24,134 nucleotides of DNA from a virus. The DNA is taken from IMG/VR virus record IMGVR_UViG_3300037961_006042, positions 1 to 24,134 of that record, one strand, 5' to 3'. Below are positions 8,000 through 16,541 of this stretch, in pieces. The notes below the pieces were generated by a model, which saw nothing but the letters and a program-made list of their open reading frames with translations, was not told the DNA's origin and made no database searches. Numbering within the stretch: position 1 is the first letter of the stretch; every line of letters starts with the position of its first letter. A program made the position numbers and the translations under genes.

Positions 8000-8791
8000 A
8001 TGGCAGGGATATCAAGATACACTACAGAGAGTCTGATTACAAAGTTGATGCACAATGCAACAACTTCAAATTACTTTCTGTCAATCAATCTGCCAGGCGC
8101 AGTAAGAACTCATATTCAACAACAAAAAGGTGTTGCAGTTGATGCTGGATTGCAAGAAAGAATCAACATCTCTTGCACTGATGCAACTCTTCCTGGTTCA
8201 TCATTTGCCACTCATGATGTGACGTCAGACTTCATGGGTGTCACTGAGAAGATGGCATATAGAAGGATGTATGATGACACAATGTCTGTGTCAATGATTG
8301 TTGATCCTGAATATAAAACCCTTCACTTCTTTGAGGGTTGGATGGATTATATTGCTGGTAAGGAGATAACTAATAGAGGAAGTAATGAAAACTATAAAAA
8401 CTTTAGGAATGGATTCAGGATGAATTATCCTGATGGTGATGAGATAGGTGAAGGTTATAGATCACAAAATCTTATTGAAATTTATAAATTTGAGAGAGAT
8501 ATTTCAAAAAATCAAAGTATCAAATATACTTTGATTGAGGGATTTCCTATCTCTATGAATCCAATGGACATTAGTTATGGATCAACTGATCTTCTTAAAC
8601 TGACAGTAAACTTTACTTTTGTCAGATATGTGACTGAACCATACATTCCAGCAGCCAAAAAGAAGACTGATGAACAAAGTCCTCTTCCCACTTTAGATAA
8701 CTTTCTTCTTACACAGAACTTCCTTAACTTCAAACCAGGTGATGGAAAGATCAATCCAGAACTTAATTTTGTTAATCAAAACGTTGCCTAA
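8000..8791 (+). CDS. Tail-tube-like baseplate protein, possible gp54 (tube initiator)
   Basis: The 263-residue protein begins MAGISRYTTESLITKLMHNATTS. The central part (IQQQKGVAVDAGLQERINISCTDATLPGSSF, then YRRMYDDTMSVSMIVDPEY and FFEGWMDYI) and the end (YGSTDLLKLTVNFTFVRYV) follow the pattern of phage tail-tube proteins: an initial strand, a loop with Pro-Gly, a middle strand giving size and position, and a final strand ending in F-x-x-R/Y. gp48 is already present, so this is a good candidate for gp54, the other T4 tube initiator, but gp19-fold proteins are hard to separate by eye. No ribosome-binding site is visible and the ATG is two bases from the divergent late promoter. Confidence 0.65.
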   Translation: MAGISRYTTESLITKLMHNATTSNYFLSINLPGAVRTHIQQQKGVAVDAGLQERINISCTDATLPGSSFATHDVTSDFMGVTEKMAYRRMYDDTMSVSMIVDPEYKTLHFFEGWMDYIAGKEITNRGSNENYKNFRNGFRMNYPDGDEIGEGYRSQNLIEIYKFERDISKNQSIKYTLIEGFPISMNPMDISYGSTDLLKLTVNFTFVRYVTEPYIPAAKKKTDEQSPLPTLDNFLLTQNFLNFKPGDGKINPELNFVNQNVA

Positions 8792-8821: not shown

Positions 8822-9538
8822 ATGCCTTTACCAAAAATTGTAACACCAACATTTGAGTTGGATTTGCCTTCTTCAGGAAAAACAATTAGTTATAGACCTT
8901 TCCTTGTCAAGGAAGAAAAACTACTTGTGATTGCACTTGAGTCAGAGGACTCGCAACAGATCACATCAGCAATCAAAGCTGTCATCAGTGATTGTATCTT
9001 GACAAAGGATGTTAAGGTTGATCAACTTCCAACTTTTGATATTGAATATCTCTTCTTGAATATCAGAGGTAAGTCTGTAGGAGAGGTTGTAGAAGTAAAC
9101 ATTATCTGTCCAGATGATGGTGAGACTGAAGTAAAGGTGTCAATCAATCTTGATGACATTCAAGTAGTCACAGATAAAAATCATACAAAGACTGTTAAAC
9201 TTGATGATACTTACTTCATGGACATGAAGTATCCATCTCTTGATCAGTTCATCAGAAACAACTTTGAATTTGAAGATCCAGATCTTGATCAATCATTTGA
9301 TCTGATTGGAACTTGTATTGATAAAATCTATGATAGTGATGAAGTATGGTCTACAGGTGATGTAAGTCCTCAAGAGGTGAAGGAATTTCTTGAGCAGTTG
9401 AACTCAACTCAGTTTAAAGAGATTGAAAAGTTCTTCAGCACAATGCCTAAACTTTCTCACACTATTGATGTGAAGAATCCTAATACAAAGAAAAAGAATA
9501 AAGTAACACTGGAGGGACTCTCAAGTTTTTTCGCATAG
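8822..9538 (+). CDS. 26: gp26-like baseplate hub protein (T4_baseplate family)
   Basis: The 238-residue protein starts MPLPKIVTPTFELDLPSSGK and has KTISYRPFLVKEEKLLVIALES (about 21-42), the typical opening of the T4 gp26 family, then TFDIEYLFLNIRGKSVGE and VNIICPDDGETEVKV. The C-terminal part is helical and Asp/Glu-rich. T4 gp26 is counted with the hub assembly proteins. An AGGA ribosome-binding site precedes the ATG. Near its end the gene has GGAGGG (9511-9516) and then T TTT TTC (9526-9532) just before the TAG, a probable -1 frameshift site leading into the next small frame. See the separate entries. Confidence 0.87.
   Translation: MPLPKIVTPTFELDLPSSGKTISYRPFLVKEEKLLVIALESEDSQQITSAIKAVISDCILTKDVKVDQLPTFDIEYLFLNIRGKSVGEVVEVNIICPDDGETEVKVSINLDDIQVVTDKNHTKTVKLDDTYFMDMKYPSLDQFIRNNFEFEDPDLDQSFDLIGTCIDKIYDSDEVWSTGDVSPQEVKEFLEQLNSTQFKEIEKFFSTMPKLSHTIDVKNPNTKKKNKVTLEGLSSFFA
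9511..9532 (+). promoter_or_regulatory. Probable programmed -1 frameshift signal at the end of gp26
   Basis: The heptamer T TTT TTC (9526-9532) is in the correct phase for gp26 (codons TTT 9527-9529 and TTC 9530-9532), two codons before the TAG. GGAGGG at 9511-9516 is a Shine-Dalgarno-like element 9 bases upstream, the arrangement that stimulates -1 slippage in bacterial dnaX. After slippage the frame stays open through ATG 9541 to the TGA at 9718-9720, giving a fusion of about 299 residues. No strong downstream stem was found. Confidence 0.6.
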
Positions 9539-9540
9539 GC

Positions 9541-9720
9541 ATGGCACATATGGATATGATGTCATACTATAAACTAAATTTTGCCTTGATGCAGTACCAT
9601 AAATACTCATTGACTGAGATTGAAAATATGATCCCTTGGGAGAGGGAAGTATATACTATTCTACTTGAGCAACATCTTAAAGAAGAAGAGGAAAAGGCAA
9701 AGAGAAAGAATGGCTCTTGA
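9541..9720 (+). CDS. Small hub/tail assembly protein, 59 aa, -1 partner of gp26
   Basis: ATG at 9541 opens a 59-codon frame 2 bases after the gp26 TAG, in the -1 phase relative to gp26. The protein reads MAHMDMMSYYKLNFAL, then YHKYSLTEIENMIPWEREVYTILL, and a strongly charged end (EEEEKAKRK). The pattern YSLxEIExMxPWEREVY resembles the short C-terminal partners of tail assembly chaperones and the region after gp26 in other T4-like phages, where T4 has gp51. No clear ribosome-binding site lies before the ATG, so it may be made mainly as a gp26 fusion. Its 3' end overlaps the next gene by 11 bases. Confidence 0.65.
   Translation: MAHMDMMSYYKLNFALMQYHKYSLTEIENMIPWEREVYTILLEQHLKEEEEKAKRKNGS
9598..9605 (+). 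promoter_or_regulatory. Candidate late promoter CATAAATA before the 1081-aa tail protein
   Basis: It matches NATAAATA inside the small gp26 partner gene, about 105 bases before ATG 9710. It encodes His-Lys-Tyr there, so coding constraint is an alternative explanation. Confidence 0.3.
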
Positions 9721-12700
9721 GAACCCCACCAACGTAGATAAAGAAATTGACCAGGGTATCTTGCGAGATTATCTTGGTATTGAGGATGGGAGTGATATAG
9801 ATTTTGGCACATATAAAACACTAATCAAAGAGAAAATCACTGCTGCCAGGATGGGTGGTAGTGACATGGATAGTGGTGATGTTGACATTCTTACAAGAGA
9901 GTTTGTCAGGATTAAAAAGATTCCTGTGCCTGATGACCAGGCAAAACCAAAGATTGATGCAAAGAAATTTTTTGCTGAGCAAAAGAAAGCAAAAGAGAAA
10001 ACTGAAGAAACTGAAGAGAAAAAACAAGATAAAAAAGAAGTTAGAATATCACAGGAAAAGTTTCTTAAGACTGCTCAAAACACAGTAAGAGAAAAAAAAG
10101 AAAAGGTTACTCCAAAACTTTTACTTCCAGGAACTGCTACTCCTCAAGAAAAAGAGAAGGAGGAGGATCAGCAGGAGGACGTCAAGAAAGGTATTGATGA
10201 AGTATCTCTTAAACTCACTGACCTTGAGGAAAATTTAAAGAGTATCTTAGAGACTCTCAAGAATCAATTTAGACTTGACAAAGAAGAAGAAAAGAAAGAA
10301 GATAATTTAGAGGCAAGAGAAAAAAGAAAAGCAAGAGAGGCAAAGTTAGAGGACAAAGCAGGAGAAAAAACTGATAAGAGTATCAATAAGAAAGTGGTCA
10401 AACCTGTTAAGGGTATCTTTGACATGATCATGGATTTCTTCAAGAATATTCTTCTTGGTGGTGCTCTTCTATTCCTTCTTAAACTTCTTCAAGATCCTAA
10501 GAAATATTTACAACCACTGGTTGATGCTTTTAATAGTGTTCTTGAATTTTTCAATGGTATTATAAGAGCAATCAATGGATTCATTAATGAATTTAATTAT
10601 TGGATTCTTAAACCAATAAGCAACTTTGTTATTGGTCCAATCTATGGTGCCTTTAATTTTATTGAAGATAGAATTAATGATGTCTTGAAACTCTTTGGAC
10701 AAAATCCTCTGAACAATATACCAGATCAAGCGCCACAAATTCAGATTCCAAAGATACCAGAGATCCCACTGTTTGATCCATTCAATACCTTACCTCAGAA
10801 TCAACAGAAACCACCTCCACCAAAGAGCACACCTGCTCAAGGACTTGAAGGTGGTGGCATAGTTCTCAATAATACCACCAATGCTGGAGATGTTAATGTA
10901 ACTGCAATGACATCTGGTGGCAGGGTCACTGGTAATACAGGAGAGAAAGTAAGGGGCATGGGTCCTGATACTCAGATGATTGCATTGCAACCTGGTGAGA
11001 TTGTAATGAGTAAATCTGCTGTTCAGTATCATGGTGCTAATAAACTACTTGCAATGAACAAGGAAGGTGGTGGAACAAATGTTCCTAAGCAAGGCACAGT
11101 GGCTGGTATGCAGGGTGGTGGCATGGTAGCATTGCAACCTGGTGAGATTGTGATGAACCAACCTGCTGTACAATATTATGGTGCTGAGAATCTTCTTGCA
11201 ATGAATAAGGAAGGAGGAGGGACAAATATTCCTAAGGTAGGAACAGTGACTGGTATGAGAGGTGGTGGTATGGTTGGATATGGAAAAGGTTTGGGTAAAA
11301 GTCCCATACCTGGATTTCCAAACTATCAGAAACCATCAGACAAATATGGTCAATTCTATGCCAGAATGTATAAAGCTGCTAAGAAATATGGAGATCCATT
11401 CCCAGGTGTTGTAGCAGCACAGGCGTGTGAGGAAAGTGCTTATGGAACATCACCACTAGCAAAAGCAGCAAACAATTTGTTTGGTCAAGATGCTAGTTCT
11501 GATTTCCCAGCTGATCAAACTTTTAAATATCATGATACTACTGATGACACTTATCATACAGCTATCAAGTTTAAGTCTCCAGAAGATTCTATCAAATACA
11601 GAGTAAGAATCTGGAAAGATTATTATGGTAATGCAAAAGTTCCAGGAAAAGCAATCAGAAATATTGCTTCTGCAGGATACAATCCATATGAAGATTATCC
11701 TGGTAAGATAGATGGTATAATGAGAGAGATGGGCATAGATCCATGGAAACCAAACCCTCAGATGAAAAAATCTGTTGCAAGGAGCGTTGAAAAGAGTAAA
11801 ACAAATAAAACAAAAGGTAAAAAACCTGAAGGTTTTATTGGTAAAATTAAAGGTGGTCTGATTTATACTTGGAATTCTGCAAGAAAAATTCTTGGAATGC
11901 AAGGTGGTGGATATATTGGGGAAGTAAAGAAGAGAGATAAGACTCAAGGACCAAATGCTAATAAGAAAATCTATTTGCACTGGGCTGCATCAACTAGAAA
12001 TAGTGTTGGTCCATATAAAGATGGTGCTGGATACCATACACAAATCACATCAGGTGGTTTAAGATCAGTTGCACCTTATGGAAGTAGAAAACCTTATCAT
12101 ACTTATGCTAAGAATACTCCAAATGCAGCAGGAATTGCTGTGTCTGGTATGCATGGAGCAAGTGAGGAAAACTATAAGAGTTGGGGACCACATGCAATAA
12201 CATCAACACAATATAAGGGGATGGCAAAAGAAGCTGCTGCCCTTGCTACTATATGGGGATGGAAACCAAGTGATATTACATCATCTAGAGTAAGAACACA
12301 CTCTGAAGAGTATAGAGATAATCCACAATATTACAATAGAAATATTGGAAGTCATTATCGTTGGGATCTCAATAGACTTTATGCATCCAGGAAGAAAAAC
12401 ACTGGTGGTGATGAGATAAGAAGGATGATTAAATCTGAAATGAATGCGTTTAAAGGTGTAAGTGGTGATCCTTCAGGGTCACAACCTAAGAGTTCTCCTG
12501 CTGCTGAGTTTAAAAAAGCAGAGGGTGTTGATCCTAGTAACTTTGCTGTCTTCCAGAGCATGTCTGAAGGACAGAGAAGTAGATTTCTTTCAGCACAGGC
12601 AGGCACTACTCTTGAAGGGACAAGAGTTACTTCAAGGATGCAGTTTCAGTTGCAGAAATATCTGATTGCAGAATCAAAGTTTAAGAAACAACAAACACAA

Positions 12701-12955
12701 CCTGCTGTCTCTGCTCCAGGTCCATCACCTGTAGTTTCTACATCACAAGATACTAGAGTAGCACCTGGTCCAAGGCAACCATCTACTTCTGTTGTCACTG
12801 GTCCTACACAAAATGGTGGACAAGTGCCCCCAGGTGCAACACCACAATCTGCAGCATCTGGTGGTCCTCAAAACACTGTTCCTTCTTTTGAATCAACAGA
12901 TTCTATGAACACTGAGACTCTTATCATCAAATCCATCTACAGTCTGGTAGGATAA
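9710..12955 (+). CDS. Large tail protein with GH73-like glucosaminidase and amidase domains (1081 aa)
   Basis: The chosen ATG has AGAGAAAG just upstream; a TTG start 45 bases earlier is possible but lies wholly in the preceding gene. Residues about 60-230 are Lys/Glu-rich and likely coiled coil. A hydrophobic segment DFFKNILLGGALLFLLK is near 243-259. A Gly-rich stretch holds two 49-residue repeats (ALQPGEIVM...AVQY.GA..LLAMNKEGGG) of a kind common in marine phage tape-measure proteins. Residues about 543-680 resemble GH73 glucosaminidases, with VVAAQACEESAYG (probable catalytic E575) and NNLFG. Residues about 752-895 look like an N-acetylmuramoyl-alanine amidase: IYLHWAAS (H757), GYHTQI, RTHSEE (H864) and RWDL (D886) as likely zinc ligands. 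It probably acts in the tail to open peptidoglycan, and may share tape-measure duty with the next gene. Confidence 0.8.
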   Translation: MALENPTNVDKEIDQGILRDYLGIEDGSDIDFGTYKTLIKEKITAARMGGSDMDSGDVDILTREFVRIKKIPVPDDQAKPKIDAKKFFAEQKKAKEKTEETEEKKQDKKEVRISQEKFLKTAQNTVREKKEKVTPKLLLPGTATPQEKEKEEDQQEDVKKGIDEVSLKLTDLEENLKSILETLKNQFRLDKEEEKKEDNLEAREKRKAREAKLEDKAGEKTDKSINKKVVKPVKGIFDMIMDFFKNILLGGALLFLLKLLQDPKKYLQPLVDAFNSVLEFFNGIIRAINGFINEFNYWILKPISNFVIGPIYGAFNFIEDRINDVLKLFGQNPLNNIPDQAPQIQIPKIPEIPLFDPFNTLPQNQQKPPPPKSTPAQGLEGGGIVLNNTTNAGDVNVTAMTSGGRVTGNTGEKVRGMGPDTQMIALQPGEIVMSKSAVQYHGANKLLAMNKEGGGTNVPKQGTVAGMQGGGMVALQPGEIVMNQPAVQYYGAENLLAMNKEGGGTNIPKVGTVTGMRGGGMVGYGKGLGKSPIPGFPNYQKPSDKYGQFYARMYKAAKKYGDPFPGVVAAQACEESAYGTSPLAKAANNLFGQDASSDFPADQTFKYHDTTDDTYHTAIKFKSPEDSIKYRVRIWKDYYGNAKVPGKAIRNIASAGYNPYEDYPGKIDGIMREMGIDPWKPNPQMKKSVARSVEKSKTNKTKGKKPEGFIGKIKGGLIYTWNSARKILGMQGGGYIGEVKKRDKTQGPNANKKIYLHWAASTRNSVGPYKDGAGYHTQITSGGLRSVAPYGSRKPYHTYAKNTPNAAGIAVSGMHGASEENYKSWGPHAITSTQYKGMAKEAAALATIWGWKPSDITSSRVRTHSEEYRDNPQYYNRNIGSHYRWDLNRLYASRKKNTGGDEIRRMIKSEMNAFKGVSGDPSGSQPKSSPAAEFKKAEGVDPSNFAVFQSMSEGQRSRFLSAQAGTTLEGTRVTSRMQFQLQKYLIAESKFKKQQTQPAVSAPGPSPVVSTSQDTRVAPGPRQPSTSVVTGPTQNGGQVPPGATPQSAASGGPQNTVPSFESTDSMNTETLIIKSIYSLVG
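10976..11269 (+). repeat. Two tandem 49-codon repeats in the 1081-aa tail protein
   Basis: Units 10976-11122 and 11123-11269 are exactly 147 bases each. Both encode M-(I/V)-ALQPGEIVM, then AVQY-(H/Y)-GA, LLAMNKEGGGTN and a Gly-rich end. They differ at about ten residues, so the duplication is not very recent. Similar LxPGEfVmxxxAVxxxGxxxL motifs occur singly near the C-terminus of many phage tape-measure proteins. Confidence 0.85.
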
Positions 12956-12956
12956 A

Positions 12957-15900
12957 ATGGCACTTCCACTTCTTCTCGCTGGTGCTAAAGGATTGTTGGC
13001 AGGTGTTGCCAAGCAGGGTATTAAGAAAGCTGCAACTAATGCTCTTAAAAATAAAGCAAAGAATGTAGCAAAGAATAAAGCAAAACAGTTCATTAAAGGT
13101 AAAAAGAAAGGTGCTCTAGCAAGAGTCACAGGTGAAGATGGTGCCCTTGTTAAATCAAAAGGTGGCGCTCTTGTCAGGTCAATGGAAGGTGGTGGAGTCA
13201 GTGCCATTGTAAAGGCACCTCCCACCAGACCTCAAGATCCAAAAGTAATTTCAACTGGTGGAAAGGTAGGATTTGAAAAAATTTCTATTCAGGTAACTAA
13301 TCTTGTTAGTTTATCTGGGTCAATTGATGATGCAATAAAAGGTCAGTATCAGGCAGAAGTAGAAGCAGCAAAGGAGAGAAAGAAACAACTTGCTGCTGCA
13401 AGGAGAAGAAGAAGAGAGAGACTGCTTGAAGGTGTCAAGGGAGCAGCAGGTGTTCTCTCAGGTATCATAGGTGGTGTAGCAGGTAAGTTTAACTTCTTTG
13501 ACTTTATAAAAAATATTCTGATAGGTGGCATTCTTCTTTTCCTTCTTAAGAACTTTAAGAAGATTATGGGTGCTCTCACATTCTTGAGAGATAATCTTTA
13601 TCTTATATTCCTACTCACAAGAGGTGCATTCCAAGTATTTGGAAGGGGACTGGGGTTAGTAGGTAAGATATTAAAGGGTGCTGTCAAAGGTATTCTGAGA
13701 TTTTTAACAGGCACCATCAAGACTATATTTAAAACCACTGGTAAAATTTTAGTATCAGGTGTGAAGAACCTTGGCAAGATGCTAAGGTCTGTGGGCACTG
13801 CTATATTTAATTTTGGTAAGAATATTTTTAGATCCATAGTAAACTTTGCTAAGAGAGTTCCACTCCTTAAGAATGTAATTAAATTTGCAACTAAACTTGG
13901 AAACCTTTTGAAGAGAGGTGGTAAAGCTGCGTTTAATATGATCAAAAGTCTTACTAGACCAGCATCTGCAGCAATCAAGGGTATTACAAAAACAGCAGCT
14001 GCTGTTGGTGGTGCAGTAAGTAAAGCAGTAAGGGCACCTGGTACATTAGTATCAAAGTTGTTTGGTAAAGAAGCAGCAAAGAACTTTGGTGGTATTAGTA
14101 AGATGATGAAGGGTGTTGCTAAAGCAGCAAGAGGAATCAGGATTCCTATTGTTGGTCCTTTAATTGTAGCAATCTCATCATTACTATCTGGTGATCCACC
14201 AACAAAAACATTGTTCAAGGCAGTGGGTGCTGGACTTGGTGAAGCACTTGGCACACTGATTCCAGTTCCAGTTGTTGGAACAATTGTTGGTGGTTTGTTG
14301 GGTGAGTTTGGTGGTGAGTTATTATATGATCTTACTCAGGGTGGTGGTATAGATGCAGTTAAGAAGAAGATATTTGATAAGTTTCAAAGCGCATTGAATG
14401 TTGGTGGTAAGATACTTGACTTCTTTAAGGCAGGATTCTCAAGGTTGCTTAAGAAAATTCCAATGATTAAACTGCCTGGTCTGAGACCAGGTGGTGGATG
14501 GCAGTGGACAATTGACAGATTACCAGGTCTCTCTCAGGAAGCTAAAGACAATATCAAGAAGTTCCTGATGGAACCCCAGATCCCCAATATACTTTGGATG
14601 TTGAATCCATTTAATATATTGGACAAGGCAAAGATACTAAAGGATTCTTTCTTCCCTCCCAATTTTGATTCATCAACTCCTTCAAGTTTGCAAGGTGGTG
14701 GCACACCATTGACAGGATTGATGGAGGATCCTGGTACATCACAACAATCACAACAACCACAACTTCCAGCAACTACTCAAGTTACTTCAGGTGGTGGTTC
14801 AGACTTCTGGACTCTTGTTGCTGTTGCCTCTAGAGAAGATAGTGATGGACAAGCAAGAGCAGATGTGGCACAATCAATCTACAATAGAAAAGCATCTGGT
14901 GCTTATGGATCTGGATCTATTCGTGATTTGATTCTCCAAGATGGGCAATATCAACCATGTTATGATTACCCTTCTCCAAATCCAGCAGGTGCTAAAACAA
15001 ATCCTGAGTGGTATAATATTGTTGATGCTCAAACTGCCGCAGCAGCAGTTGGTGAGGATGTTGCTTTCATTGAAAAAGCAGCTCGTGATATTCAGAACAA
15101 ACAATATCAGGAAGAAGCAAAGAAGTTTGTTGGTGGTAGAACAGACTTTACAAACTATTCAAAGAGAGATAGAAAAGAAGAGGTAGTAAGAACAACTAAT
15201 AAACCTAACAATTACTTTGGATATGATTGGAATTACACAGGCACTACAATGGGAAATGTTCCCAACTTCAATACCACTCAACCACCTGCTATTCCTCCAC
15301 AACCACAACCAGAAGCACAACCAGAAGCAGAACCAGTAACACAACCAGCAGCACAACCACAAACCAGAATGATACCTACTGCTGAAGCAAAAGAAGCAAA
15401 AATAACTCTTGCTACTATGCGTGATCAAGCAGCAAAGATTACATCAATGATGGGTAACAAAGGTACAGGTGAATCTGTTAGGTTAAAGAATGTAGGTACT
15501 TTTGTAAGTGGAAGAAACATCTTTAAAATGGGTCAGGATAAGTTTTTTGATCCAGATGGAAGAGAAATTACAAGAGATGAGTTTGAAGCTACCATGGTTG
15601 CTCAAGCAAAGAGATTGACTAGACAAAGTGCAGAGACAACAACTGAAACAATCTCTACTCCAACTGCTCAGCTTTCAGGTGATGCTGGTGGAGAACAACA
15701 ACAAGGTCCATCACCAGGTGTTACTCCTGTTTCACAAGCAATTCCTAGAACAGGTGGTGGTGGTACTGGACTGACAAATATTGTTCCCACTGCTAATTTA
15801 ATGGATATTGGTGTATATGCTGGAGAAAATGCCATCCAGAATAAAGTTGGTATGACTAGTGCAAGAGGATGGAGGGATGGTAGATTTCATAGAGGAGTAG

Positions 15901-16541
15901 ATATTGGAGTTGGTAAGGGCAATAAAGGATATTATGTTGCATTCAAGTTGAAGGGTAGAGTATCAGATGTTGGTACGTTTGACGGATATGGTGAGACTGT
16001 TGTTATAACCTCTGGTGATAAAGACTTCTTGTTTGCACACCTTGCATTGGGGTCAATCATGGTTCAAAAAGGACAAGCATATAATGGTGAGATTATTGGT
16101 GAAATTGGAAATACAGGTAGGGGGACAAGTGAGCACTTACACTTTGAGGTAAGTCCTGAAGGCACTGGTGGTTATAAAAAAGATGAAGACCCAATGCCTT
16201 ATGTTAAGTATCTTGTTATTGGTAGAATGGGTGATGGTTCTCCTGTGTCCACCACACCTGCCACTGAAGGTCCACAAATTGTTGGTGACTCTCATGGTCA
16301 TAGACAATCTGGAGGTAATGTAGTATCACCTGGTCCAGTAACAAGAGACATTGAACAATATCCATCATATGATCTTGGTGATAATAATGTTATCATCATA
16401 GGACCTGGTGGACAACCACAACCTGCAATGTCAGGTGGTGGAAGGAAGTCAAGTGTGATGATGACAGGTGTCTCTACAAAATCCATGTTAAATAGTTACT
16501 ATAAAAAACAACTCTTAGGGTTACTTTATAAAGTAGGATAA
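12957..16541 (+). CDS. Large tail protein with SleB-like hydrolase and M23 peptidase domains (1194 aa)
   Basis: The start is one base after the preceding stop. The N-terminal 170 residues are basic and Ala/Lys-rich. A hydrophobic segment DFIKNILIGGILLFLLK (about 182-198) is nearly the same as in the preceding protein. Then come long amphipathic, Gly/Lys/Leu-rich helices to about 470, tape-measure-like. Residues about 615-745 resemble SleB-type cell-wall hydrolases: VAVASREDSDGQARADVAQSIYNRK with probable catalytic E627, and LILQDGQYQPCY. A Pro/Gln linker follows. Residues about 970-1080 are an M23 (LytM-like) peptidase with HRGVD (H978, D982), FAHLALG (H1028) and HLHFEV (H1060, H1062), so all zinc and catalytic residues are present. 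The stop overlaps the next ATG by one base. It is likely a virion wall-degrading protein. Confidence 0.8.
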   Translation: MALPLLLAGAKGLLAGVAKQGIKKAATNALKNKAKNVAKNKAKQFIKGKKKGALARVTGEDGALVKSKGGALVRSMEGGGVSAIVKAPPTRPQDPKVISTGGKVGFEKISIQVTNLVSLSGSIDDAIKGQYQAEVEAAKERKKQLAAARRRRRERLLEGVKGAAGVLSGIIGGVAGKFNFFDFIKNILIGGILLFLLKNFKKIMGALTFLRDNLYLIFLLTRGAFQVFGRGLGLVGKILKGAVKGILRFLTGTIKTIFKTTGKILVSGVKNLGKMLRSVGTAIFNFGKNIFRSIVNFAKRVPLLKNVIKFATKLGNLLKRGGKAAFNMIKSLTRPASAAIKGITKTAAAVGGAVSKAVRAPGTLVSKLFGKEAAKNFGGISKMMKGVAKAARGIRIPIVGPLIVAISSLLSGDPPTKTLFKAVGAGLGEALGTLIPVPVVGTIVGGLLGEFGGELLYDLTQGGGIDAVKKKIFDKFQSALNVGGKILDFFKAGFSRLLKKIPMIKLPGLRPGGGWQWTIDRLPGLSQEAKDNIKKFLMEPQIPNILWMLNPFNILDKAKILKDSFFPPNFDSSTPSSLQGGGTPLTGLMEDPGTSQQSQQPQLPATTQVTSGGGSDFWTLVAVASREDSDGQARADVAQSIYNRKASGAYGSGSIRDLILQDGQYQPCYDYPSPNPAGAKTNPEWYNIVDAQTAAAAVGEDVAFIEKAARDIQNKQYQEEAKKFVGGRTDFTNYSKRDRKEEVVRTTNKPNNYFGYDWNYTGTTMGNVPNFNTTQPPAIPPQPQPEAQPEAEPVTQPAAQPQTRMIPTAEAKEAKITLATMRDQAAKITSMMGNKGTGESVRLKNVGTFVSGRNIFKMGQDKFFDPDGREITRDEFEATMVAQAKRLTRQSAETTTETISTPTAQLSGDAGGEQQQGPSPGVTPVSQAIPRTGGGGTGLTNIVPTANLMDIGVYAGENAIQNKVGMTSARGWRDGRFHRGVDIGVGKGNKGYYVAFKLKGRVSDVGTFDGYGETVVITSGDKDFLFAHLALGSIMVQKGQAYNGEIIGEIGNTGRGTSEHLHFEVSPEGTGGYKKDEDPMPYVKYLVIGRMGDGSPVSTTPATEGPQIVGDSHGHRQSGGNVVSPGPVTRDIEQYPSYDLGDNNVIIIGPGGQPQPAMSGGGRKSSVMMTGVSTKSMLNSYYKKQLLGLLYKVG

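Follow-up and report, generated by a model that had tools for sequence, protein, structure and literature searches.

Gene order and sequence at the gp26 3' end

The stretch of DNA analysed here (the window) comprises the 24,134 nucleotides of IMG/VR virus record IMGVR_UViG_3300037961_006042, which has T4-like gene content and finds its closest phage matches among the Synechococcus and Prochlorococcus myoviruses. The minus strand carries gp53-, gp48-, gp2- and gp4-like genes. The plus strand carries, in this order, a tail tube-like protein, gp26, a small frame usually annotated as "gp51" and a pair of very large genes whose products contain cell-wall hydrolase domains, with the following features:

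8000..8791, plus strand: tail tube-like protein, upstream of gp26 (phrog_45 tail tube, E=3.6e-25; PF23849, E=2e-9)
8822..9538, plus strand: gp26-like gene, 238 aa (PF12322, E=1.3e-74; phrog_150, E=1.2e-79)
9511..9516, plus strand: SD-like GGAGGG, likely frameshift stimulator, read from the sequence
9526..9532, plus strand: slippery heptamer T TTT TTC, in phase, proposed site of the -1 frameshift
9532..9720, plus strand: -1 frame extension, 62 codons and TGA (9718-9720), candidate C-terminal domain of a long form
9541..9720, plus strand: "gp51" ORF as usually annotated, 59 aa (phrog_634, E=9e-27)
9710..12955, plus strand: large protein, 1081 aa, glucosaminidase domain (PF01832, E=5e-14), adjoining the pair downstream
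12957..16541, plus strand: second large protein, 1194 aa, hydrophobic segments and M23 peptidase domain (PF01551, E=9e-13)

The position of gp26, between a tail tube-like gene and large genes that are probably tape-measure-like, is the context expected of a tail assembly chaperone (TAC) gene, and the first-pass annotation had likened it to the layout in phages lambda and P2. The protein encoded at 9710..12955 weakly matches a tape measure family (phrog_37649, E=8e-4) and is presumably tape-measure-like; the protein at 12957..16541 may have a similar role. In Caulobacter phage Cr30, an annotated tail tape measure protein lies just 3' of the gp26/"gp51" pair. We note that the two neighboring large proteins of the window both have hydrophobic segments and carry different hydrolase domains (glucosaminidase and M23 peptidase, respectively); they may be tape-measure-like proteins with built-in peptidoglycan hydrolases.

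The 3' codons of gp26 read CTG GAG GGA CTC TCA AGT TTT TTC GCA TAG and are followed by GC ATG. The first-pass annotation had described a heptamer, T TTT TTC, in phase near the gp26 stop, and direct reading of the sequence places it at 9526-9532 in the phase X XXY YYZ, with GGAGGG (9511-9516) separated from it by the claimed spacer of 9 bases. After a slip, reading would continue from 9532 as CGC ATA GGC ATG and so on, through a frame that is open for 62 codons to the TGA at 9718-9720, giving the anticipated fusion of 237 + 62 = 299 residues. The small frame had also been said to lack a clear ribosome-binding site, and indeed no SD-like sequence is present in the 15 bases upstream of the ATG of the 59-aa ORF. 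An in-phase X XXY YYZ sequence occurs within the last ten codons at only 1 of the 20 gene ends of the window, that of gp26, and although the genes of the window contain 20 Phe-Phe pairs, the one at the gp26 site alone is written T TTT TTC.

Conservation of the heptamer and of the -1 frame

Relatives of the locus were chosen by gp26 protein similarity or by record, never by the heptamer, and removal of duplicates left 233 distinct gp26 junctions. Of the 233 junctions, 232 have an in-phase TTTTTT[C/T/G] among their last six codons, nearly always at the same place, so that the conservation by which the slippery site had been proposed to stand or fall is clearly seen. The heptamer is kept down to ~21-30% protein identity in phages of Caulobacter, Vibrio, Aeromonas, Stenotrophomonas, Sinorhizobium and Acinetobacter, and the distant members that have it are Caulobacter Cr30, Aeromonas G2, Stenotrophomonas Moby and Vibrio ValKK3, as well as Sinorhizobium phiM9, Rhizobium IC12 and Acinetobacter SH-Ab 15599. 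A search with the Acinetobacter-type gp26 found no contigs. Because the heptamer is kept across these relatives, we consider it to be beyond reasonable doubt. The sole exception among the 233 junctions is Vibrio phage K474, which has the same gene layout without a canonical heptamer; when four more phages were added later, Vibrio K351, a relative of K474, was likewise without one, and the three more distant phages added alongside it have the heptamer. The K474 junction (L095 802-1623) reads CTT TTT GCG TAA TGATGG and that of K351 (L336 632-1372) CTT TTC AAG TAA TGG, each with the partner in the -1 frame; in these two phages, a one-tRNA slip or reinitiation at TAATG may serve as a substitute.

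The constraint on the heptamer acts on its nucleotides. We counted third-position changes per codon column on a tree of the gp26 proteins and found 1, 0 and 6 changes at codons 235, 236 and 237, against a gene median of 62 per column. These three heptamer codons are, the initiator Met aside, the lowest columns of the gene, and the nine other conserved Phe columns of gp26 underwent between 13 and 64 TTT/TTC changes on the same tree. Further, codon 236 is TTT in all 232 relatives, the preceding base is T in 232/232 even though six different codons supply it, and codon 237 is TTC in 225 of the 232, against a general Phe usage of 66% TTT and 34% TTC. We conclude that the heptamer is under nucleotide-level selection. 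A run of at least six consecutive Ts in nearly all relatives could also invite slippage by RNA polymerase, with the long product then arising from the transcript rather than on the ribosome. However, the TTC at codon 237 holds the run at six although TTT is the favored codon, which fits slippage of two tRNAs and not a selected homopolymer, and the SD-like element is linked to the site. We therefore regard a transcriptional origin of the long form as extremely improbable.

Past the heptamer, each of the 226 complete relatives keeps the -1 frame open, for 55-68 codons. The residue that follows Phe-Phe in frame 0 varies (Ala in 138, Gly in 53, Val in 14, Glu in 10 and Asp in 2), and the first base of its codon is G in 217 of 229 relatives, which produces Arg in the -1 frame in all 217. 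That the frame 0 residue varies while the -1 frame Arg is kept implies translation of the -1 frame upstream of the gp26 stop; this conserved codon sits 5' of any start at which ribosomes could reinitiate. The second frame thus continues past the gp26 stop and is selected for its coding content, as in a TAC made by programmed frameshifting (lambda G/GT type).

As mostly annotated, gp26 and the 59-aa gp51 would be separate proteins, with ribosomes that terminate on gp26 reinitiating at the nearby ATG to make gp51. In 189 of 225 relatives, an ATG or another start is indeed present among the first 12 codons; more than half have an ATG only a few codons away, so that a separate small product may be made, and the annotated start overlaps the stop in several distant phages. 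However, the first 12 post-shift codons of 36 of the 225 contain no ATG, GTG or TTG, and 4 have no start codon in the first 22. Nor does separate synthesis account for the frozen heptamer or for the -1 frame Arg codon before the stop; the SD-like element is kept at the wrong spacing for the ATG (24 bases), and T4-type relatives carry the two parts as an in-frame fusion. Because some relatives have no start codon for the partner and the Arg codon precedes any start, the partner cannot in general be made by separate translation, and as an account of this locus we consider separate synthesis by coupled reinitiation very improbable. A conserved ribosome-binding site serving the small gene, named beforehand as a sign against the frameshift, was not seen in the relatives, some of which have no start codon for it at all. 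The 59-aa "gp51" ORF is probably part of the -1 extension and improbable as a gene of its own.

In a mixed arrangement, the long form would come from the frameshift, and ribosomes reinitiating at ATG 9541 would make some free C-terminal domain in addition; start codons are indeed frequent there, and 119 of 225 relatives have their first start at codon 4 of the shifted frame. At this position, however, the relatives have Met or another hydrophobic residue, as at an ordinary position within a protein, and ATG 9541 has no SD before it; we consider such additional reinitiation unlikely. The stop codon of gp26 itself shows a bias, being TAG (9536-9538 in the window) in 186 of 232 relatives, compared with 3 of the 20 window genes and 29 of 226 ends of the -1 frame. 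This preference probably reflects the -1 frame, which wants Ala or Gly there.

The upstream SD-like element and downstream RNA

The upstream GGAGGG falls on a Glu-Gly codon pair, and in the relatives, this pair is written GAA-GGT only 2 times, compared with 67 expected, although GAA-GGT is the commonest Glu-Gly codon pair elsewhere in the same genes. The pair instead keeps GAG-GGN, GAA-GGG or GAA-GGA, i.e. GAGG or AAGG[AG], and we conclude that selection also acts separately on the SD-like element, via linked codon choice. The element is likely to be a frameshift stimulator. In E. coli dnaX, an SD-like stimulator lies ~10 bases upstream of the heptamer and a hairpin lies downstream. The gp26 locus resembles dnaX in the upstream SD-like element and differs from it in that no hairpin is common to the gp26 relatives.

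Downstream of the heptamer in the window, no RNA structure was detected beyond the level of shuffled sequences (z -0.48 and -0.84). In 229 relatives, the 60 bases 3' of the heptamer had a mean z of -1.6, compared with -0.5 and -0.4 for the controls; RNAalifold found no structure common to these relatives, and pairwise covariation in the region was weak. We therefore do not claim a downstream structural stimulator, there being no common fold, little covariation and a window at shuffle level. Stable lineage-specific hairpins are nevertheless present within this 60-base stretch of some relatives (e.g. L193, L184, L059 and L082), and the window is without one. Together with the reduced site in Vibrio K474 and K351, these hairpins, which share no common sequence, leave room for the rather doubtful idea that the frameshift signal includes a variable, lineage-specific third part. 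If it did, the PF12322 family would show a frameshift signal that has been lost or changed toward the two-gene solution of T4.

Protein family, predicted fold and proposed chaperone function

The gp26 protein belongs to PF12322 and phrog_150 and is annotated as "baseplate hub" in its relatives; its partner belongs to phrog_634 and aligns in addition with the final 43 columns of phrog_150. T4 gp26 (208 aa) covers columns 14-235 of the 282-column phrog_150 profile, and T4 gp51 (249 aa) covers columns 13-280 and also matches phrog_634. In a profile comparison, the C-terminal domain of the predicted long form matches residues 208-244 of T4 gp51 and nothing in T4 gp26. PF12322 genes number two in T4 and in Aeromonas phage ZHF, and one in each of 16 other phages; the window, which is a genome fragment, has one, as does each complete cyanophage tested. 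T4 gp26 ends in GLKEFFELL, with Phe-Phe written TTC TTT, which is not slippery. Judged from these profiles, T4 devotes one gene to the short member of the family (gp26) and another to the long member (gp51), and most relatives would encode both forms in one frameshifted gene. T4 and the window phage thus share the family (PF12322, phrog_150) and the short and long form, and differ in that T4 makes them without a frameshift. We also note a CxxC pair (e.g. KCPKCG) shortly 5' of the frameshift site in gp26 of Vibrio, Stenotrophomonas and Pseudomonas relatives (L086, L087 and L339), replaced by NPxT in cyanophage gp26; to judge by the motif, it could be a zinc site.

An AlphaFold2 model of gp26 (pLDDT 87) was compared with solved structures, a check for a tail chaperone fold that the first-pass annotation had put forward. 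A sequence search of the PDB gave no match, and a Foldseek search of the model against the PDB gave no significant E-value (E 0.8 and 1.6). After structural realignment, the three best PDB matches were 2OB9 (HK97 TAC; Z 7.9), 3FGX (Z 7.9) and 3KLU (YqbN; Z 7.2), which places the HK97 TAC among the best solved-structure matches, with a Z just below 8, and all other realigned entries had Z of 4.8 and below. The three matches span 84-86 residues, and the likeness is confined to gp26 residues 1-90. The model thus resembles TAC-N, and we predict with moderate confidence that the N-terminal part of gp26 has this fold. The C-terminal domain of the long form is modeled by AlphaFold2 as helices.

Overall, we put at about 0.93 the probability that a -1 programmed frameshift in gp26 makes a short and a long tail assembly chaperone (TAC-N and TAC-NC). 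Most ribosomes would read gp26 to the TAG and produce the short form of 238 aa. A fraction would instead move into the -1 frame at T TTT TTC, where the P- and A-site tRNA-Phe would re-pair with TTT, and pairing of GGAGGG with the anti-SD of 16S rRNA would aid the slip. These ribosomes would continue for 62 codons in the -1 frame and produce a long form of 299 aa that has an additional helical domain. If the proteins act as lambda gpG/gpGT do, the tape measure protein would be coated by many copies of the short form and few of the long one, tail tube subunits would be recruited through the additional domain, and both forms would depart before the virion is complete. The proposal of the first-pass annotation that the gp26/gp51 position acts as a frameshifting tail chaperone is thus supported, at the level of sequence and model, by the conserved site, the kinship with T4 and the HK97 TAC-like model.

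The slippery site of lambda gpG/gpGT is G GGA AAG, and we know of no sequence similarity between these proteins and gp26. The lambda site therefore differs from that of gp26, whose heptamer is moreover preceded by an SD-like element. In phage P2, which has a contractile tail, E/E+E' is made by -1 frameshifting on a T-rich heptamer; such a heptamer is common to P2 and gp26, and the proteins differ. Vladimirov, Gautam and Davidson (Virology 2022, 566:9-15) reportedly named the T4-like tail assembly chaperone genes, and their abstract is said to state that frameshifting is kept in several T4-like groups and that T4 uses two genes. The latter point is repeated, with reference to that work, in a passage of the PRFect paper (PMC10885494), and a passage of PMC12846349 cites it for slippery poly-T sites within the TAC-N genes that T4-like phages carry. 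PMC12846349 also describes the TAC of Pakpunavirus/Andersonviridae, with a GTTTTT site found by comparative alignment. These phages resemble the gp26 relatives in being myoviruses in which a poly-T -1 site is conserved ahead of the tape measure gene, and differ in phage family. A 2016 review (PMC5009743) treats lambda gpG/gpGT, the basis of the chaperone analogy used here, and lists T4 as an exception without a TAC frameshift. T4 gp51 is needed for assembly and absent from the particle (PMC3004832), which fits a chaperone role.

A frameshifted TAC in T4-like phages was already proposed in 2022 and is not a new idea, and the window phage is a further member of this known type. The first-pass annotation had suspected the arrangement to be outside standard annotation, which is correct for the public records, since none of 21 named records joins the two frames, and is not so for the literature, in which the T4-like assignment had been made. 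The second "gene" of the locus often has no annotation, and the C-terminal domain frame is without an annotated gene in many cyanophage records (S-CAM1, ACG-2014d, ACG-2014e, S-CAM4, P-RSM1 and others). Newly added here are the relatives free of start codons, the dual-coding Arg, the per-codon counts on the tree, the linked codons of the SD-like element and the exception in Vibrio K474 and K351. The -1 frameshift signal is represented here in 232 natural versions, with strong nucleotide-level evidence for the heptamer and the SD-like element. The analysis corrects a widespread annotation of marine T4-like phages: "gp26 baseplate hub" and "gp51 hub assembly catalyst" would together be one frameshifted TAC locus. 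Further, it favors the assignment of T4 genes 26 and 51 to the short and the long chaperone, respectively, and it thus bears on how the length of the T4 tail is set.
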